Assembly: GCA_026419785.1 (NCBI GenBank) | Contig: JAODTK010001488.1 | Location: 429,674 to 493,673 of the forward strand | Direction of reading: 5' to 3' | Origin: Sclerodactyla briareus | Taxonomy: Eukaryota; Echinodermata; Holothuroidea; Dendrochirotida; Sclerodactylidae | DNA length: 64,000 nt | Shown here: positions 19,930 through 60,540 of the stretch, one piece after another | Layout: every line of letters begins with the position of its first letter | How positions within the stretch are numbered: position 1 is the first letter of the stretch | Translations under genes and position numbers: made by a program | Notes under the pieces: generated by a model | Databases searched by the model: none | Seen by the model: the letters and a program-made list of their open reading frames with translations, nothing else | Told to the model about the DNA's origin: nothing

Positions 19930-20700
19930 GCAGTTCGCAAAGACGAAGAAAAGTTTCCATTACAACATCCCCTCTAGAATATTTTGTTGCCAAGATGTCA
20001 ATGCCAAACGTCAAGTTTAACAAAATTCCAGTGTTTTAGGCTGTCTTTATCTTTCCCACATGTGCATGCTTGAGATAGCTTGTGATGGGAGTGCTGTATT
20101 ACATTAGTCTGATTCACATTATGGTTTGTCTCAACAAGACGAATCTGGTCATTACCAAAAATAAGACTCAATGTCACAAGGTCATAAGGTCAAACGAGGG
20201 CAAAAGGGCAAATGAGTTCAAAGTCGTTCACCATAGGTAGTTCTTCCCACACGAACACCACTTTTTTTCCCATTACGCTCCCTCTAAAATGTTCCTTTGC
20301 CAAGATATATAAGGATAGTCCCTATGGTGCCCTTAAAGCCTTGACCTGACACCAAAAATATAGGGTTCATCCTCACCAGTTGCAACCCACATACAACAAT
20401 TGCACACTGGAATACATGCTTGCGTCGTTAGATATCGTGCTGACAAGCTTCTTTTCGTTTGTCCCTCTCGTGACCTTGATGAGCTTGAACTGGCACCAAA
20501 AACAATAGGGGTCATCCTCTCTATATGTTCAACACACACACTTAATTTAGACTTAACACAGCTTGGCGTTCTGTTCAGACTATCGTTATGACAAGTGCGT
20601 CCACACACACTCACAGACGCACACACACACACACCTACGCACAGCGCGTGACTGCGTAGAATTCCTTGTTGCCTTCGGCAAGGAATAAAAAACCCAAAAT
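19930..20700 (+). repeat. Degenerate dispersed/tandem repeat ending in a hairpin
   Basis: Related segments recur. CATCCCCTCTAGAATATTTTG near 19967 matches ACGCTCCCTCTAAAATGTTCC near 20275. Paired CACCAAAAA-TAGGGTTCATCC and CACCAAAAACAATAGGGGTCATCC segments lie near 20350 and 20494. The right part has a CA array (about 20601-20635) followed by a hairpin ATTCCTTG...CAAGGAAT at 20660-20685. I associate this layout with abundant repeats of marine invertebrate genomes. No coding capacity. Confidence 0.5.
20660..20685. repeat. Hairpin at the end of the degenerate repeat
   Basis: An 8-bp perfect stem, ATTCCTTG and CAAGGAAT, encloses a 10-nt loop. It sits right after the CA-rich tract and could mark the repeat terminus. 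Confidence 0.55.
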
Positions 20701-20772
20701 TCTTGGGAGCGCTCCGCGCGCCATTCATAGTGACGCTCCGTTTTAACCTGGATAAGCAGATAGGCGCGCTTG

Positions 20773-21788
20773 TATGGCAGCCGTTTTAATATTCACCTCC
20801 CAATTCGACTTAAGTAAAATTCATTTCGACCTAAGTCGAATTCAGAGGATCTGACGTAAGTTGACTCAATTCGACTAAGCTGAATTAATTCACAGTGAAA
20901 TAGGCAATTAAGTGAAGAGACGCCCTTCCATTCTCAGTGGAATACAATTCCACTTGAATTACTTGAGCGAATTGAATTCAACCTAAGTCGCATGAATACA
21001 ACTAGTAGAATTAGATTTAACTTAAGTCGAATGCATTATGGACAGTCAATTCGAATGAAGTCAATCCAATTCAATTAAGTTAATTAAATTTACTTAAGGG
21101 AATACAATTTCATTAAGCGGAACCAATTCAAACACAATTCGACTTTCCATTCGATTTAGGTCGAATTCACTTCGACTTGAGTCGAAGTGAATGCCCTAAG
21201 TCGAATGTATCACTTAGCGAATTGGCTGTCTATTTCACTTAATTGAAATAAATACCTGCAACCGAGAGTTTGCCGATTGGAGTTCCAAATTCAATGAGGA
21301 GAACTCGATGAGATTTCTCGGGGACCCATGTCTATCAGTCTATTCTGGTGAAAACTCGAGTTGACAATCCGCATTTCCACCACTCAGCACGTGTGATTAA
21401 TTACTGTTTCGTGTCTATATATTATTCAGCCGAACGAGGATGCAGCAAGTGCTAAGAAAATTGTAGTGAAAACCCATCACATTCGATTAGTGAATTGTGA
21501 TCTAGTTAACTCAAGTGAAAATAATAATTCGACTGAGTGAAATCAATCGACTTAAGTCAAATATTAATTCGGACTTCAAATAGCGCGATGGCTCTTTTAT
21601 TTACTTAAGTTAAATTAAATTCCACTGAAGCGGAATTTTTTTTTTTACGATTTCACTGAATGGAACTGAATTCGATTTAAGTTAATTCAATTCGACGTCA
21701 GTCAAATTGATTGAATCGAATGAATTCACTACGTGAAAAATTAGTTCACTAAGTGAAATTAGGAGGTAAATGTTGAAACGGCTTGCTA
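20773..21788. mobile_element. DNA-transposon-like element, palindrome-packed interior
   Basis: The left end (20773-20810) reads TATGGCAGCCGTTTTAATAT then TCACCTCC. The right end (21745-21788), read from the other strand, gives TAGCAAGCCGTTTCAACATT then TACCTCC. These are imperfect terminal inverted repeats of about 28 bp. CGCTTG flanks both sides (20767-20772 and 21789-21794) and may be the target-site duplication. The 1-kb interior has no coding frame. It is dominated by more than a dozen variants of TTCGACTTAAGTCGAA and AAGTGAAT motifs in both orientations, including a 60-nt nested hairpin at 21148-21207. This fits a non-autonomous foldback element. The superfamily is not assigned. Confidence 0.6.
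21148..21207. repeat. Nested hairpin in the element interior
   Basis: The inner perfect arms ATTCACTTCGACT (21165-21177) and AGTCGAAGTGAAT (21180-21192) are separated by TG. The outer arms CATTCGATTTAGG (21148-21160) and CCTAAGTCGAATG (21195-21207) have one mismatch. Confidence 0.8.
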
Positions 21789-22685
21789 CGCTTGAGGCCT
21801 ACAAAAGCTCGTGGGTTTGTCTTCCTAACAATGTCTCTCTGAGACTCCGACGCCTGGCAACACAAGCTGACAGGGACATTACAATAACGATGGAGCACTC
21901 TTGGGAGAACTTCAGGTAATCGGAATGAGTCGAAAATGATGCGGCGGTACCGTTACTCGGTTGGAAAAAAAATCTCCAGTCGGAATTGGGGACATTGACA
22001 CCCTCACGCAACGTATGCCCCTAGCTAGCTACGGCCATGGCAGGACGGAACAGGAGTTACAGGATACTATGGCCGAGGGAATAACTTGTCACTTGCACAT
22101 GAAGATTATAACGCTTGTTGGACATGGCAGTGCATCATATTAAAGGCGGCCATGGATGAATCTCTAAAGTAACGCAAATACCGATATCGAATTTAGTTGA
22201 CCCCTGTTTACCAGAGTCCACAGGTCATATAGGGATCACAACAGCCAACAAACTGAAATGCTATATGTACTTGAATACCACGTAAGGTTATGATTTCTCT
22301 GCCAAATACAAGCGTTACAAAATATTGCGCAAAGCGAACAGTATTCCTTGCCGGAATGATGCTAATACTCATGCCTACCAGAAAAACATTTTACTGATAT
22401 GTTCAGAAGCTAATTAGAGAACTTCGAGCCAAATATTAGCTAAATTGAATAATTCTTGTACCTTCATTTCCAGTTTTAGGCCGCCGGATTTTTTCGAACG
22501 TGAATATATATCTTCTATTCAGTTACTCAAGTACCCCAAATAACAACTTACGCAGCCAGCTGATTGAAAACCGGGATACCAAATTTCGTGCAAATAATAA
22601 TCCATGACCACCTCAACTTATTGATGTGTAGTGCTCGTAATCCGTAACATTTTCCTAGAATACGTTTTCTCATGAATTGAAAAGA
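21789..22685. other. No feature recognised
   Basis: Unique-looking sequence without gene signals. A possible acceptor (CTTCATTTCCAG near 22474) opens only a 22-codon frame. Confidence 0.5.
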
Positions 22686-23428
22686 AAACAAGCGCAAGTC
22701 GAAACGTCTTGATAGCTGCGGACGGCAAAATTCCTATGGCGATACACTGCGTGTTCTTCACTATCAATTCGTTGTTTTACATTAATTGACCTTTACTGAA
22801 CATCTGTCATAACCTTGGAATGGCTTGGAACATGTCTACCACATTAGGCTGATATTTGCTCTCAGTGCCCATCACAACGCACGCCAACTAACTCATTCCA
22901 AACAAAACTTTGTGTACCCAGCCCAACTCCTAGGCCTGTAGCATTGAACGTGAACACATTTGGGATCTACAATGAAATCTAGGCCAACGCCTACGCATGA
23001 GAAGACTGACGCAGAGAAGATGATGACAGATCTTCCACAGAACTGCCTGTTATCCCCCCCCCCATTGCCTGTTTCCAGGCCCCTCCGGCTGTCAGACAAA
23101 TTCAACAGTCCCTGCTCTACATGGCCAGCCCTGCAGCTCGAGGGAGTAAGGTAAACAAACCACTCTCAACGAGAGTTCAATGGGAATGGCTCTTGGTAGA
23201 CAAATGATGTATTTAAATTTTGGATTTAATCAAAATCTATCAATTATGCCGAAAAATGTAACCTCAGGCGAGCCATTGCATGCTTCCTCCACCATCAAGT
23301 TTAACCTGATCGCTATCGGTTCAGAAGTTTACGAATGACTTACGAACAAACCGGACGAACGGACGAACGAACGAAACGACGGACGGAAAGAACATGATGA
23401 CTTGTGCAGCTTCTCACCCGCAGCTCAA
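22686..23428 (+). repeat. Dispersed repeat, copy 1 of 3
   Basis: This shares ordered blocks with copies at 27611-28411 and 29581-30300. They are AACAAGCGCAAGTCGAAACG at the left, CATCTGTCATAACCTTGGAA, the AACTCCTAGGCCTGTAGCA block, GAACTGCCTGTTATCCCCC (also in copy 2), and a GAAC/GGAC microsatellite near the right end followed by CATGATGAC and a CCCGCAGCT end. All three copies are in the same orientation. No long frame and no clear terminal inverted repeats. It is likely a non-autonomous mobile element or a segmentally repeated unit. This copy carries a C10 run at 23054-23063. Confidence 0.75.
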
Positions 23429-27610: not shown

Positions 27611-28411
27611 CAAATCAGCGCAATCGAAACGTCTTGTACTACGACGGCAAATTCCTGTGGCGAATACACTGCATGTTCTTCACCATTCCACATTATTCAT
27701 TAAATTTCACGTGTAATTGACCTTCACAGACATCTGTCATAACCTTGAAATGACTTTGAACATGTCTACCACATTGGCCTAATATTTGCTATCAGTGCCA
27801 GCACGGAAAGTAACCAGCACAACTCATTTCTGGGCCTGTATATTAGCTATAAAAACTTCATGTGTACCCAGCACAACTCATTCCTGCCTGTAGCAGTGAA
27901 CAGTGTAAATACAGTTGAATCACAATGGATGAGGTTCCACACAGGGCTGAAGTTCAGTCAGCACCTACATTGTGAGGAGGTGATGACAGATCTCCCAAAG
28001 AACTGCCTGTTATCCCCCATTCTGCCATTGCCTCTATTCATTCCACCTAAGTGCTGACAGACGAATTAAACAGTCCCTCTTCTACCTGCTGCCTGCTCTG
28101 CAGTGATAAGGAGTAACGTAAACAAATCTCTCTCACATAGACCTCAATGGGAATAGCTGTGGGTAGACAAATTGGAATAATTAATTGGATTTAATTAAAA
28201 TGTAATCACACTATGCCAACAAACTGTAACCAGTAAGCCTACCTGGCATTCTTCATGCACCCCACCAGTTTTCAACCTGATCGCACGTCCTGTCTAGAAG
28301 TTATGAGTGAACGTGACGAACAGAATGGACGAACAAACGAACGAACGATCAACGAAACGAGCAGCGGAGAGACAATGACTTGCTAGTAGGCTACTATCCC
28401 GCAGCTAAAAA
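27611..28411 (+). repeat. Dispersed repeat, copy 2 of 3
   Basis: The longest copy (about 800 bp) of the repeat described at 22686-23428, in the same orientation. It contains an internal duplication of the block reading TACCCAGCACAACTCATTCC / AACCAGCACAACTCATTTCT, also partly present in copy 3. The GAAC-type microsatellite lies at about 28330-28370 and the CCGCAGCTAAAAAT end at about 28400-28412. Confidence 0.75.
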
Positions 28412-29133
28412 TGTCACGAAGTCTCGCGAATGAGCCCCGTGTGCCAGAAAGGAAACACACCTACAATGAAACAAATTGGACAAGGTAATAACAGTTTCTG
28501 AACTATATGAACAGGACTTTTATTGACAATGGTTACTCTCTTGATGAAAGAATGTGCCGGACAAACAACGGCATTTTGTGTAACTGTTTCATTGTAACGA
28601 ATGGCCGCTGATCCATTGAGAACAAGGCGGTGACGCGTGACAAGTTACAATAAACGCTCTATGTCCCCCCCCCCCCCCCCCCGCCCCCAACAATCCCCCC
28701 CCCTGGCTGAATAGACTGAGTGCGCTGGGCTTCTCCAGCCTCTCCTTGCGCTATAGAAGTGGTCACTCATGCTATAAGTTATTGGTTCTTCCAGTCATGC
28801 GTAAGTGACCACATGTCTTCTTTGTGGCCTGTTTTTTTTTAGCCTGTAGGATGTATTCTTATTTTTATTTTTTATAAATACGGAGGCTATTGGTGCAATA
28901 ACGAAGACATCACAACAGGAAACAACTGTGTCTACGATCCAGAGCGATGGACTGATGGTAACACTGGGGCAGTCGAAGTTCCATCCTAAACGCGACTAAT
29001 CGACGATACATTTAATTTGGAACATCGTCTTTCGATGTTGTATCAGGCTATATCGCGGTTTACTAAGTCCACCGCGAACTGTCCACCGATTAAAACGTAG
29101 TGTCGGAAGATTATTCCAATTATCAGTCTCGAA
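28412..29133. other. No gene; C18 tract
   Basis: C18 at 28665-28682 is followed by further C-rich sequence to about 28703. Nothing else is recognised. Confidence 0.5.
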
Positions 29134-29326: not shown

Positions 29327-29580
29327 TTATGAGACCAGTGATTGTCCAGACTGCAGTTGAAGCTGACTGTGTCATTAAAAGGGGGGAGTTTGAATTGTTA
29401 TGATTACCACCTTCGAAAGTCAATTGTATCATATTCACATAGTCTACACTGGACCAGATTGAGAAGATTTATGAGCTGTGGAGGCTGACCTCAATCAATA
29501 CCCATTACATGAGGTTAACCCTCTTGAGGCCGAGAGACGCTTTAACACGCGCGGCAGTGGCCACCTCTCCCTTCCCTCAA

Positions 29581-30300
29581 AAACAAGCGCAAGTCGGAAC
29601 CTCTTGATAGCTGCGGACGGCAAAATTCCTGTGGCGAATACACTGCATATGTTCTTCACCACTCCACATTAATTGTTTGTTCACATTTAATTGACCTTTA
29701 CTGCCCTCTGTCATAACCTTGGAATGGCTTGGAACACATGTCTACTACATTAGCCTAATAATTGCTATCAGGGCCCAGCACAAAGTACCCACTAACTCAT
29801 TCCTAGGCCTGTATATTACTTATAGGTACCCCAACAAAACTTTATAGGTGTACCCAGCACAACTCCTAGGCCTGTAGCAGTGAACAGTGGAATCCCCCAT
29901 TCCCTGTATTCCAGCCACCTCAGTGCTGACAGACAAATTAAACAGTCCCCCCAATTCCAGCAGTCCTGCCTGCCCGCTCGAGGGAATATGTAAACAACCA
30001 CTCTCACAGAGATATCAATGGGAAGGGCTGTGGGGAGACAATTGGGGTAATTAATTAATTGGATTTAATTGAAATCTAGCACACTATGCAAACAAAAATG
30101 TTACACAGCCTTGCCAGTGGCATGATTCATGCCCCTTACCATGTTTCAGCCTGATCGTATGTACGGTCAGAAGTTACAAATGAACGTGACGAACAGAATG
30201 GACGAAAGAACGAACGAACGAACTAACGGACGAACGAACGAACGAACGAACGGACGGAGAGACATGATGACATGTAGAGCTGCTTACCCACAGCTAAAAA
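29581..30300 (+). repeat. Dispersed repeat, copy 3 of 3
   Basis: A third direct copy of the repeat at 22686-23428 and 27611-28411. It has the longest GAAC/GGAC microsatellite (about 30180-30257), which creates an apparent frame repeating E-R-T-N. The copy ends at ACCCACAGCTAAAAAT. Confidence 0.75.
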
Positions 30301-31303
30301 TAAGTCGGCCACTCGGCCAGCTCAAGCCTCGAAGGGTTAATCAAATGGCGGCGTGCGCACACTCGCAGCGGTGACGTCACTTCACACTCCACCGAGCATC
30401 ACTCGATGTTATTGCCGTTTCGGTTACCCAACCGCCAATGACGAGTGCTGCGTGGCCGGAGGGAAGACGTGTGTGCCGACAAATTTCTGATTTGCTGGTC
30501 GATGATTACCCCTCTGAGGCGCGGTTTGTATTCTCAGATATAAGGCAGGACTCAAAGGCTTTTTTCTACAACCTTCACTCTCGTGGACGCTGAGTTTCCC
30601 CTCTTCGAGGCGAGTACGGTCCTCGTAAAGTTTATTTAGGTGATAACCTCCGTCGACTGTCTGTTCGCGACGCAGCCATTTTGTGTGCAGATAGCCTGAG
30701 CGGTGTATCCGTCACATGACTTCTGCGGATATTTATGATCGGCTGAAGACTGGTATACATGTACTATTTAGTGTAAATTATCAATATGCTTCCAAATTTC
30801 AGGACCTCTTCAACGTCACACAGTTTGCACAGCGTTCCAGCATGTAATAGCAGTCCATACGAAGATGATTCAAATTACAACAGTTACAAACAGAGCGGAT
30901 TCCGTCTATTAGACACAGGATGATACCATGATCATATGAAATTTATATTAACCCTATATACAGGAAACTGCTATACCCAATTCATGTGGTGGGCTACATA
31001 TTGAGCGGAAATACCCCAGCAGTACACAATGTCTACCATTATCAGAGAGCCACATGCCATGTGCACCCAAGACATTCATGGTATTGGGACGCATCTGCCA
31101 TCACCATGATCACGCAAATGTCCTATTAGCCTACGTGGAGATCTAGAGAACCATTTGGAGGTATGAAACGAGATAAAAATGAATGAGCTGAGAAACAGAC
31201 GTATTCTATGATTGAGATCTGAATGTTATGCCAAAAATAGAAGTGAAGAAAGCATGACCTTTTTTGTGAATAATCTCAAACCTGTATATTTTCCCCCTAT
31301 CAG
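30301..31303. other. CpG-rich, CRE-bearing stretch then featureless
   Basis: 30340-30700 is visibly richer in CG dinucleotides than its surroundings. It contains a perfect GTGACGTCAC palindrome at 30371-30380, ATGGCGGC near 30344 and GCCATTTTG near 30676 (YY1-like). It could be a promoter, but no downstream exon can be tied to it. Confidence 0.3.
30371..30380. promoter_or_regulatory. CRE-like palindrome GTGACGTCAC
   Basis: Exact TGACGTCA core, the binding site of CREB/ATF proteins, within a CpG-rich stretch. The motif is seen directly. Function is inference. Confidence 0.3.
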
Positions 31304-33572: not shown

Positions 33573-34170
33573 CATCGGGAAGGAGAAAGGTTAAGAATTA
33601 TTGTGCAACACAAAATCTTCCGACGGGCGGACGCGGACGCGGGGACGCGACGCGGCGACCGCGAGGTACGGGCTGAGGAGAAACCATAATATCCCCGAAG
33701 TGTGGATATAATTACCAAACACTGCTGTGTATATATGAAACTCAGAACAACATAGACCTGTGCAGTGATATTAAATGGCGGGAAGGGAAGTGGATGGTCA
33801 GTCCAGGTCAATAATTGAGGTCAATGGAATGGCGGAAATACGAAATACTGGAACATATTCCACACGCAGTTATCGCGATGGGAATGAAGGAAGTTTAAGT
33901 ATTGTGCTAACTCGAAAATTACGCGGCGGACGCGGACACGAGCGAGGAGCGGCGGGGACACAGAGGGTTACGGCGAAGGAGAAACCATAATATCCACGAA
34001 GGTGGATATTAATGACCAAAACGGTTTGTCTAATCAGAAACAACTAGGCCTCGTAGTGGATAAATGGCGGGAATGTTGGATGGTCGGTCCAATCATTAAT
34101 CTGTTAATTGAAGGTCAATGAATGACGGAAATAATGAAACAGTATTCTCTTATCGCGCGGCATTAGAAGG
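33573..34170 (+). repeat. Tandem repeat, period about 280-300 bp, two full copies
   Basis: Copy A (33573-33874) and copy B (33875-34153) share in order a GGGAA-GA-GG-TTAAG-ATTGTGC segment, GCGGACGCGGAC, GGAGAAACCATAATATCC, GAAG-TGGATAT-AAT-ACCAAA, AAATGGCGGGAA, TGGATGGTC and TATCGCG. A third copy begins at about 34150 and is cut short. The GC-rich ACGCGG core gives a glycine/arginine-rich artefact in translation. Confidence 0.8.
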
Positions 34171-38969: not shown

Positions 38970-39767
38970 TCTGTACGACCGTCTTGTACGCGACCGCATC
39001 AATGCAGTGGCGCGAATAGTGTGATGGAAATGAACATTAGATCAGTTACTCCACAGACGGTTTTTTGAATTATAAATTTCGGAAATTATTGTCAATTTTA
39101 GGGATGTTGCTTCCTGTCATAGACCCGGGAAGTCGCGTTTCCGGCAACTGGGGGGGTCGTAAGGCTCAAAATTTCCTTGTACATACGCGTCCAATGATGG
39201 TGGCCCGAATTGTAAGGAATAAACATCGTTCAGTTCCTACAAGAACGTTTCTTGAACTATAATTTTCGCAACGCATTGCCAATTTTGGGGACGTTTGGCT
39301 AATTGCACAGACGGAGACTCAGGGAGGGCCGTTCTGCAATGGGGTAGGGGGGTTGGGTATTAAAACGAGAATTTTCCTTGACCTACGCGTCCACCTGATG
39401 GTGGCCCGAATGTAAGGAATAAACACTCGAACAGTCCTCAAAGAAGGTTTTTTGAGAAAATTAAATTATGAAAAATATTGCCAATTTAGGGACTTTGCCG
39501 TACTGCCATACGGATCGGAGTGCCGTGTTCTGCAATCAGGGGGGTCTGGAAAACGAAAAATTGCCTTGTAACCTACGCGTCAACCGATCTTGCATGGCCC
39601 GAATTGTACGGAATAAAGATTGATCAGTTTCTTCGAAAATGTTTTCTTGAAAGAAAATCGATAATTTATTGCCAATTTAGGGATGTTACTTACTGCCATA
39701 TGGCACGGGAGATGCCGTTTCCTGCAATCTGGGGGCTCTGTAAAACGAAAATTCTCCCGGTTGGCCG

Positions 39768-59214: not shown

Positions 59215-60540
59215 CACAATGTTCGTGTCTTTGATGAATCTCGACCAGACTTGGTCACAATTTTTTACTGACTAATTGGTCATCGTTTACCACCTAAAGG
59301 TCAAGTTCAAATTGCATTGAAGGGGAACAATGAGTCAATAAGTTGAAAACTGAAAACTCTACTCTCCTACAATTTTTGGTGCACAGTTCTTATGTTCGGT
59401 CATAATGGTGGTCTACAGCCGTACCTTTGGGGTGTTCAGGAATTTTGGGCTCAGGGCCCCGTTCGGGCCGAAGGGCCCATATGTGAAATATGCAAAATCT
59501 TGTATCCCTACAATTTAAATGGGGCACAGTGCTGGTGTTCAGTCATAATTATAATCTAATCGACGTATACTTGGGGTGTTCATGGATTTTTTGTTCAAAG
59601 GTCCGACTTGGGCCCAGGGTCCATTTTATTATATTTCACCCAATGGTGTTTGAAATGCATCTCATCCCCACAAGCTGTCAATTGAATTTTTCCTCAAGTT
59701 AATGTATGGTCCTTGGTGGTAAGAGGTCCATTGGGTTTTCTCATGGACCTTTTGTCCCAGGGCCCGTTTTGGGCTCTAGGTCCCATCATGTGAAATATAC
59801 TGCAAAATAATGTATCTCACACAAATCCTATGTGGCACTATGCTGATGTTCAGTCATGATGATGGGTCCATTAGCTGTGGCCTTCAGGGTAACCCAGGGA
59901 CTTGGGACCTAAGGCCCAGTGTGGGTCCGAGGCTCCATCATTGCGCATGCTTCCTCACTATACATGTTTTGGTGAAATATTGACATTCGGCGGTCAAAAT
60001 GATAGGTCTATCATGCCGTACTTCCAGGGTGTTCAGAATTTTCGATCAGGGTCCCACTTGGGCCCCGAGTGACCATTTTATTGAAATTTCAATGGAATTT
60101 CACACATTGGTACTTTAAAAATGCATCTCTTGCACAAATTCCATTGATTTTCCTTTGTATCATTTTTTTTAATTCGAGTTATATGTAATTCTCCTTGTTT
60201 AGTGGTCCATTGGGGTGTTTTGCAAATTTCTGGCTGAAGGCCCAAACGTGGGCCTAGGGCCTAATCATGTGAATCTAATACGAATGCTTCTTACAAATTT
60301 TGATGCACAGGTCAGTGCTGATGTTCGGTCATAATGCTGTCTAATAGCCGTACCCTCAGGGTTAATTATCAGGAATTGTTGGACTTGAGGCCCATGTGGG
60401 CCTGGGGCCCTTGTGTGCAATCATGCAAAATGCTTGTACATATTTTGGTGCACATTGCTGATGATAGATCATAATGATGGAAAAGCCATACCAATGTTTG
60501 GTTTCAAGGACCCCTTGGGCCGTATACACCGCCTATCACT
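59215..60540 (+). repeat. Degenerate tandem array, period about 150-165 bp
   Basis: About seven to eight diverged units share a fixed order: CTACA-ATTTTGGTGCACAG, TGCTGATGTTCGGTCATAAT, GTCTA-TAGCCGTAC, GGGTGTTCAGGAATTTTGG, CAGGGCCC-GTTGGGCCC-GGGCCC, then ATGTGAAATATGCAAAAT-CTT. Units start near 59365, 59510, 59665, 59815, 59955, 60120, 60295 and 60435. It opens with a GAATCTCGACCAGACTTGGT segment related to the next array. Confidence 0.8.

Follow-up and report, generated by a model that had tools for sequence, protein, structure and literature searches.

The closest described systems to the locus analyzed here are the IS3EU and GingerRoot transposons. TA..TA termini are invariable in complete IS3EU families, whose target site duplication (TSD) is usually 6 bp, and GingerRoot has a 6-bp TSD with mostly TA..TA termini (PMC10045372). 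The ends of IS3EU elements from fungi are TAYGG..CCRTA, with terminal inverted repeats (TIRs) of more than 30 bp (PMC12730594). Styx is active and makes 6-bp duplications, and its transposase suggests an IS3EU origin (PMC10853768). A table of oyster satellite repeats gives two of them the label DNA/IS3EU (PMC8268682). Duplications of 6 bp have also been named for Polinton (PMC10045372) and for hAT6 (PMC12730594).

An element that resembles these transposons is present in the 64-kb stretch of DNA that was analyzed, which is referred to here as the window. It occupies positions 20773 to 21788 (1016 bp), has inverted ends, and is flanked by two identical copies of the 6-bp sequence CGCTTG. The left TIR (20773-20806, plus strand) starts with TATGG, and by eye the similarity extends to about 20818. 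The right TIR (21756-21788, minus strand) ends in ..TGCTA and pairs with the left end. The element end sequence is TATGGCAGCCG.. and the inverted-repeat portion is about 34-47 bp per end. The TIRs are imperfect. When the left end was aligned with the reverse complement of the right end, 26 of 34 columns were identical and a gap was placed at position 3; five of the eight mismatches counted from this alignment are C/T. The two copies of CGCTTG (20767-20772 and 21789-21794, both plus strand) directly adjoin the inverted ends, and no flanking repeat longer than 6 bp was found near them. These features give good support to the view that the locus is a mobile element with inverted ends and with CGCTTG as its target duplication. 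It is very probably an old transposon without genes. The element is probably a single decayed, non-autonomous cut-and-paste DNA transposon, a long MITE, of the IS3EU/GingerRoot type, and its palindromes may be subterminal protein sites. As such it looks like an element of an already known kind, with nothing new in principle.

The initial annotation had proposed imperfect TIRs and a possible CGCTTG target duplication, and both were borne out. Local alignment of the end neighbourhoods gave a score of 36, whereas 500 shuffled pairs averaged 10.2 and did not exceed 18. The window was scanned for identical 6-mers located 150 to 3000 bases apart, with 6-mers of fewer than three letters excluded. Of the 42,712 pairs that were found, 185 have TA..TA ends. 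The pair 20773/21788 is the best end pairing among these 185 candidates, with a score of 17 versus 8 for the runner-up, which falls within the motif array described below. With the TA..TA condition dropped, the score of 17 is equalled by three pairs within the motif array, and scores elsewhere in the window are at most 14; inverted matches thus also arise from the motif itself and by chance. CGCTTG occurs 17 times in the window, both strands counted together, so the flanking repeat says little by itself and more in conjunction with the ends. Two positions picked at random share a 6-mer within about 2 bases in 0.4% of cases (2000 random pairs), and in 33% when the boundaries are allowed to float across the wide span that was scanned.

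The likeness to IS3EU and GingerRoot lies in the 6-bp target duplication CGCTTG, seen at one copy, in the TA..TA ends, and in inverted ends of more than 30 bp. The left end, TATGG, fits the TAYGG of the fungal elements. The right end, however, reads TAGCA inwards and not TAYGG, with 26 identical columns among the 34 of the ends. The element also differs from IS3EU in having no transposase, and its palindromic subterminal arrays are not mentioned in the relevant passages of the IS3EU sources cited here. Points counted against the IS3EU-type reading are the TAGCA right end, the gap in the end alignment, the ties at a score of 17, and the 33% chance of a common 6-mer with loose boundaries. Further points are that no transposase was found in the window frames searched and no second copy in the window, that half-sites cover about one third of the element, and that a 20-bp period is weak. 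The element was seen as one copy, and the superfamily assignment is therefore based on one copy. Its length, its TIRs and TSD, and its lack of coding sequence are those of a MITE.

The element contains no long reading frame, the longest open stretch being 59 amino acids. In the window as a whole there are only four frames of at least 150 amino acids from a start codon, and simple repeats are numerous, which gives it a eukaryotic appearance. The character of the repeats might point to a mollusc or another marine invertebrate. Pfam was used to search 62 of the 71 window frames of at least 90 amino acids, the other nine being rich in simple repeats by eye. No family was found at E ≤0.01 in 52 of these frames, and the 10 others gave one weak match (E 0.2) at E ≤1. 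None of the 62 frames was found to encode a transposase. The window contains no tRNA and no Rfam family at gathering scores. A coding element or a known RNA element can thus be ruled out on the frames and families searched (Pfam, Rfam, and tRNA).

A second copy was not found elsewhere in the window, where the best blastn match was 27 bases long (E 0.52). The sequence collections that were searched consist of prokaryotes, viruses, and plasmids, groups to which the likely eukaryotic host does not belong. In these prokaryote and virus collections, the end patterns had no hits in either viral_contigs or genome_contigs, and the element had no match to plasmids and phages at E 1e-5. The motif patterns matched 1, 0, 0, and 9 stretches in viral_contigs and 6 in genome_contigs. 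None of these 16 loci has a comparable array, the maximum being 10 half-sites per 450 bp against 28 in the element. This maximum is reached by two loci, L014 and L016, each with one matching palindrome in the 601 bases examined. By eye, the two look like oppositely oriented copies of a single sequence, and L014 has a further motif hit 2.3 kb away. Among the published descriptions listed as matches, none corresponds to this element as judged by the title and the opening of the abstract.

Other repeats are also present in the window. Beside the element, at 20340-20520, there are two stretches, similar by eye, that end in CACCAAAAA..ATAGGG.TCATCCTC and lie about 140 bp apart. A dispersed repeat with ACGA-rich stretches is present in three copies (22685-23393, 27617-28412, and 29580-30301), which are 72-79% alike. 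A direct duplication of about 260 bp with 72% identity is found at 33577-34133. Three to four head-to-tail repeats of a unit of about 195 bp, with about 71% identity, occupy 39003-39751, and 59344-60478 holds several incomplete copies of a repeat that are 72-74% alike.

The recurring unit inside the element is a degenerate 18-bp palindrome with the consensus ATTCGACTTAAGTCGAAT. The form TTCGACTTAAGTCGAA was found eight times in the window with at most 3 mismatches, and all eight matches are inside the element. The expectation is 0.27, and none of 100 shuffles reached this count. The half-site ATTCGACTT, with at most 2 mismatches, has 45 matches in the element against 3.2 expected, a value derived from the rest of the window by the same counting procedure. 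At its densest, the element holds 28 half-sites per 450 bp and the rest of the window 6. A symmetric EM model identified 34 sites in the element (overlap was possible, with starts spaced by 9 bp or more), whereas 50 shuffles averaged 0.76 sites and had at most 8. Of the 55 positions in the window that score at least 8 with this model, 37 are in the element, an excess that is partly by construction because the element itself supplied the training sequence. The list of EM sites shows that most units are degenerate. The element has a CpG observed/expected ratio of 1.33, compared with 0.87 for the window and 0.94 for the core between the motif blocks; the raised value of the element is probably due to the TCGA contained in the unit.

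The initial annotation had described the element as packed with palindromes in both orientations, with an interior made almost wholly of the motif. Strong enrichment of the motif was confirmed by the half-site counts, but half-sites cover 334 of the 1016 bases of the element and 19 of the 225 bases of its core, so that the interior is not nearly motif-only. Both orientations do occur (21 half-sites on the plus strand and 24 on the minus strand), but this has little meaning for a palindrome. In addition, eight plus/minus pairs are offset by a single base, each being one stretch that matches on both strands, so the number of separate half-sites is below 45 and the similar counts on the two strands are in part a consequence of this double matching. 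Both half-sites are recognisable in 10 palindromes. The packing with palindromes was overstated. There are four near-perfect 16-nt palindromes (at most one of eight pairs wrong) in the element, and 300 shuffles averaged 0.69 and likewise reached four at most. Such a number is not exceptional per kilobase in the window, where the other 1-kb bins have at most 3, apart from two AT-rich bins that hold 6 and 48. The strict palindrome count, which merely equals the shuffle maximum, was dropped as the main proof.

The units are arranged as two blocks around a core. The left block of degenerate ATTCGACTTAAGTCGAAT units (20801-21255) contains 28 of the 45 half-sites, counted from 20773, which cover 205 of its 455 bases. 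The core (21256-21480, 225 bp) is nearly free of the motif and has 3 of the 45 half-sites. The right block of the same units (21481-21755) has the other 14, counted to 21788, and they cover 106 of its 275 bases. With the ends removed, the left and right blocks align with a score of 57 in direct and 50 in inverted orientation. These scores are similar because the unit is a palindrome and matches in both senses. Long foldback arms were rejected, as this comparison does not show them.

The following mechanism is proposed for an IS3EU/GingerRoot-type element. A transposase supplied in trans by an autonomous relative would pair and cut the TA ends. Excision would then be followed by insertion with a 6-bp stagger, and 6 bp of the target, CGCTTG, would have been duplicated in the process. 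The two palindromic blocks could serve as subterminal sites for a DNA-binding protein, either the transposase itself or a second protein encoded by the element. The palindromic nature of the site suggests that such a protein would bind as a dimer. The bound blocks might raise the local concentration of the protein and bring the ends together. It is plausible that the motif array is an array of binding sites. The blocks may have grown by local duplication and then decayed.

Local growth could also account for the units with no binding function at all, as satellite-like expansion within a mobile element. Many units are spaced 19-21 bp apart, and there are precedents for mobile elements that contain tandem repeats and act as their source (PMC4079207, PMC9659126). 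However, the spacing of other units is irregular. The autocorrelation has its peak at lag 5 (3.3 sd), with 2.0 sd at lag 10 and 1.4 sd at lag 20, and this weak value at lag 20 indicates that the blocks lack the regularity of a 20-bp tandem array. The position of the units in two blocks around a core and between the ends also argues against satellite-like growth. It is a possible but rather doubtful history for the units. It is compatible with the mobile-element part of the preferred reading, and the probabilities of the two are not meant to sum to one.

A non-autonomous transposon of another superfamily is unlikely. Foldback/Mutator-like, hAT6, Polinton-derived, or undescribed elements would act by a like mechanism with a different transposase. 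The comparison with Polinton and hAT6 is by duplication length alone, since they also duplicate 6 bp; for this element that length comes from one site of a single copy. Arrays of short repeats are found within or next to the ends of Foldback and Mutator elements, and elements of the Tm1, Tetris, and Muta1 type resemble the present one in having composite ends with short repeats and non-coding derivatives. The target duplications of Muta1, Tm1, and Tetris are about 8-10 bp, however, against 6 bp here. The short repeats of Foldback-type elements are in tandem within long inverted ends, whereas this element has no such ends, and its blocks beyond the TIRs are no better matched in inverted than in direct orientation. 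The foldback reading is therefore not supported in the strict sense, and Foldback membership was rejected. In addition, TA..TA ends are a stated mark of IS3EU.

CACTA elements have ends that start with CACTA and a short duplication. In Spm/En, the TNPA protein, which is needed for transposition, recognises the subterminal repeats, and in the soybean element Tgmt the subterminal repeats can form palindromes and the duplication is ATA (PMC2613891). Short, palindrome-forming motifs repeated inside both ends are common to these CACTA elements and the present one, and the CACTA elements offer a precedent for protein binding to such repeats. The element differs in its ends, TATGG and TAGCA in place of CACTA, and in its 6-bp duplication, which is 3 bp in Tgmt, and it does not belong with CACTA. 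Dada elements are similar in duplication length, as a 6-bp duplication is reported for U6 insertions and proposed for U1 insertions (PMC3706591). Dada-U6 and Dada-U1 are described as being without TIRs and as inserting into small RNA genes (PMC3706591). Membership in Dada is ruled out, as the element has clear inverted ends and lies in a window with no tRNA or Rfam match.

Folding of the DNA bears on whether the locus might instead be a host regulatory or structural element, such as a cluster of binding sites or a cruciform former, that is under selection and is not mobile. As single-stranded DNA, the whole element folds at -149.3 kcal/mol, compared with -100.7 kcal/mol (sd 6.3) for 40 shuffles (z -7.7). 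The fold z is -7.1 for the left block (20811-21250), -2.7 for the right block (21483-21750), and +1.3 for the core, compared with values between -2.9 and +4.1 for nine 440-bp control stretches. The right block is inside the control range, and of the two blocks it is the left one that stands out. It contains a nested imperfect palindrome of 60 bp (21148-21207), which matches its own opposite strand at 83.9% and is the best hairpin or cruciform candidate. The fold of 21145-21210 is -21.1 kcal/mol (z -9.5). Of the six stretches folded singly, this is the one strong hairpin, with values of -2.7 to -8.8 kcal/mol for the other five stretches chosen. Cruciforms are described as thermodynamically unfavourable structures whose extrusion can be driven by negative supercoiling, in palindromes of sufficient length (PMC7999016). 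The units are short and mismatched, and extensive cruciforms, which had been suggested for the element, are thus not its likely purpose. What stands of that suggestion is the strong fold of the element as a whole, to which the left block contributes most, and one hairpin. The overall fold and the nested palindrome could be expected of a host element. The units are degenerate, however, no gene was recognised among the reading frames and RNA families that were searched, and the ends and flanking repeat look transpositional. A host element of this kind is thus quite improbable. Chance is not a credible explanation, since the motif, half-site, and end-pairing tests are far above their controls and refute it for the motif, and it is only in the count of near-perfect palindromes that the element does no better than shuffled sequence.

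The transposon of the IS3EU/GingerRoot type remains the preferred reading. It can be extended, very tentatively, to a mode of end recognition by subterminal arrays in this superfamily, which is related to bacterial IS3/IS481. The ends of this IS3EU-type element might be read through dense arrays of dimer sites built from a single palindrome, and not through short terminal repeats alone, with the 60-bp nested palindrome possibly serving as a hairpin signal; this is an unlikely proposal at present.

The correction of the foldback reading shows how a palindromic repeat unit can give a foldback look to an element that is not a foldback element. If the superfamily assignment is true, this non-coding IS3EU-type element, with its well-defined subterminal array, would offer a testable candidate for the binding target of these transposases.
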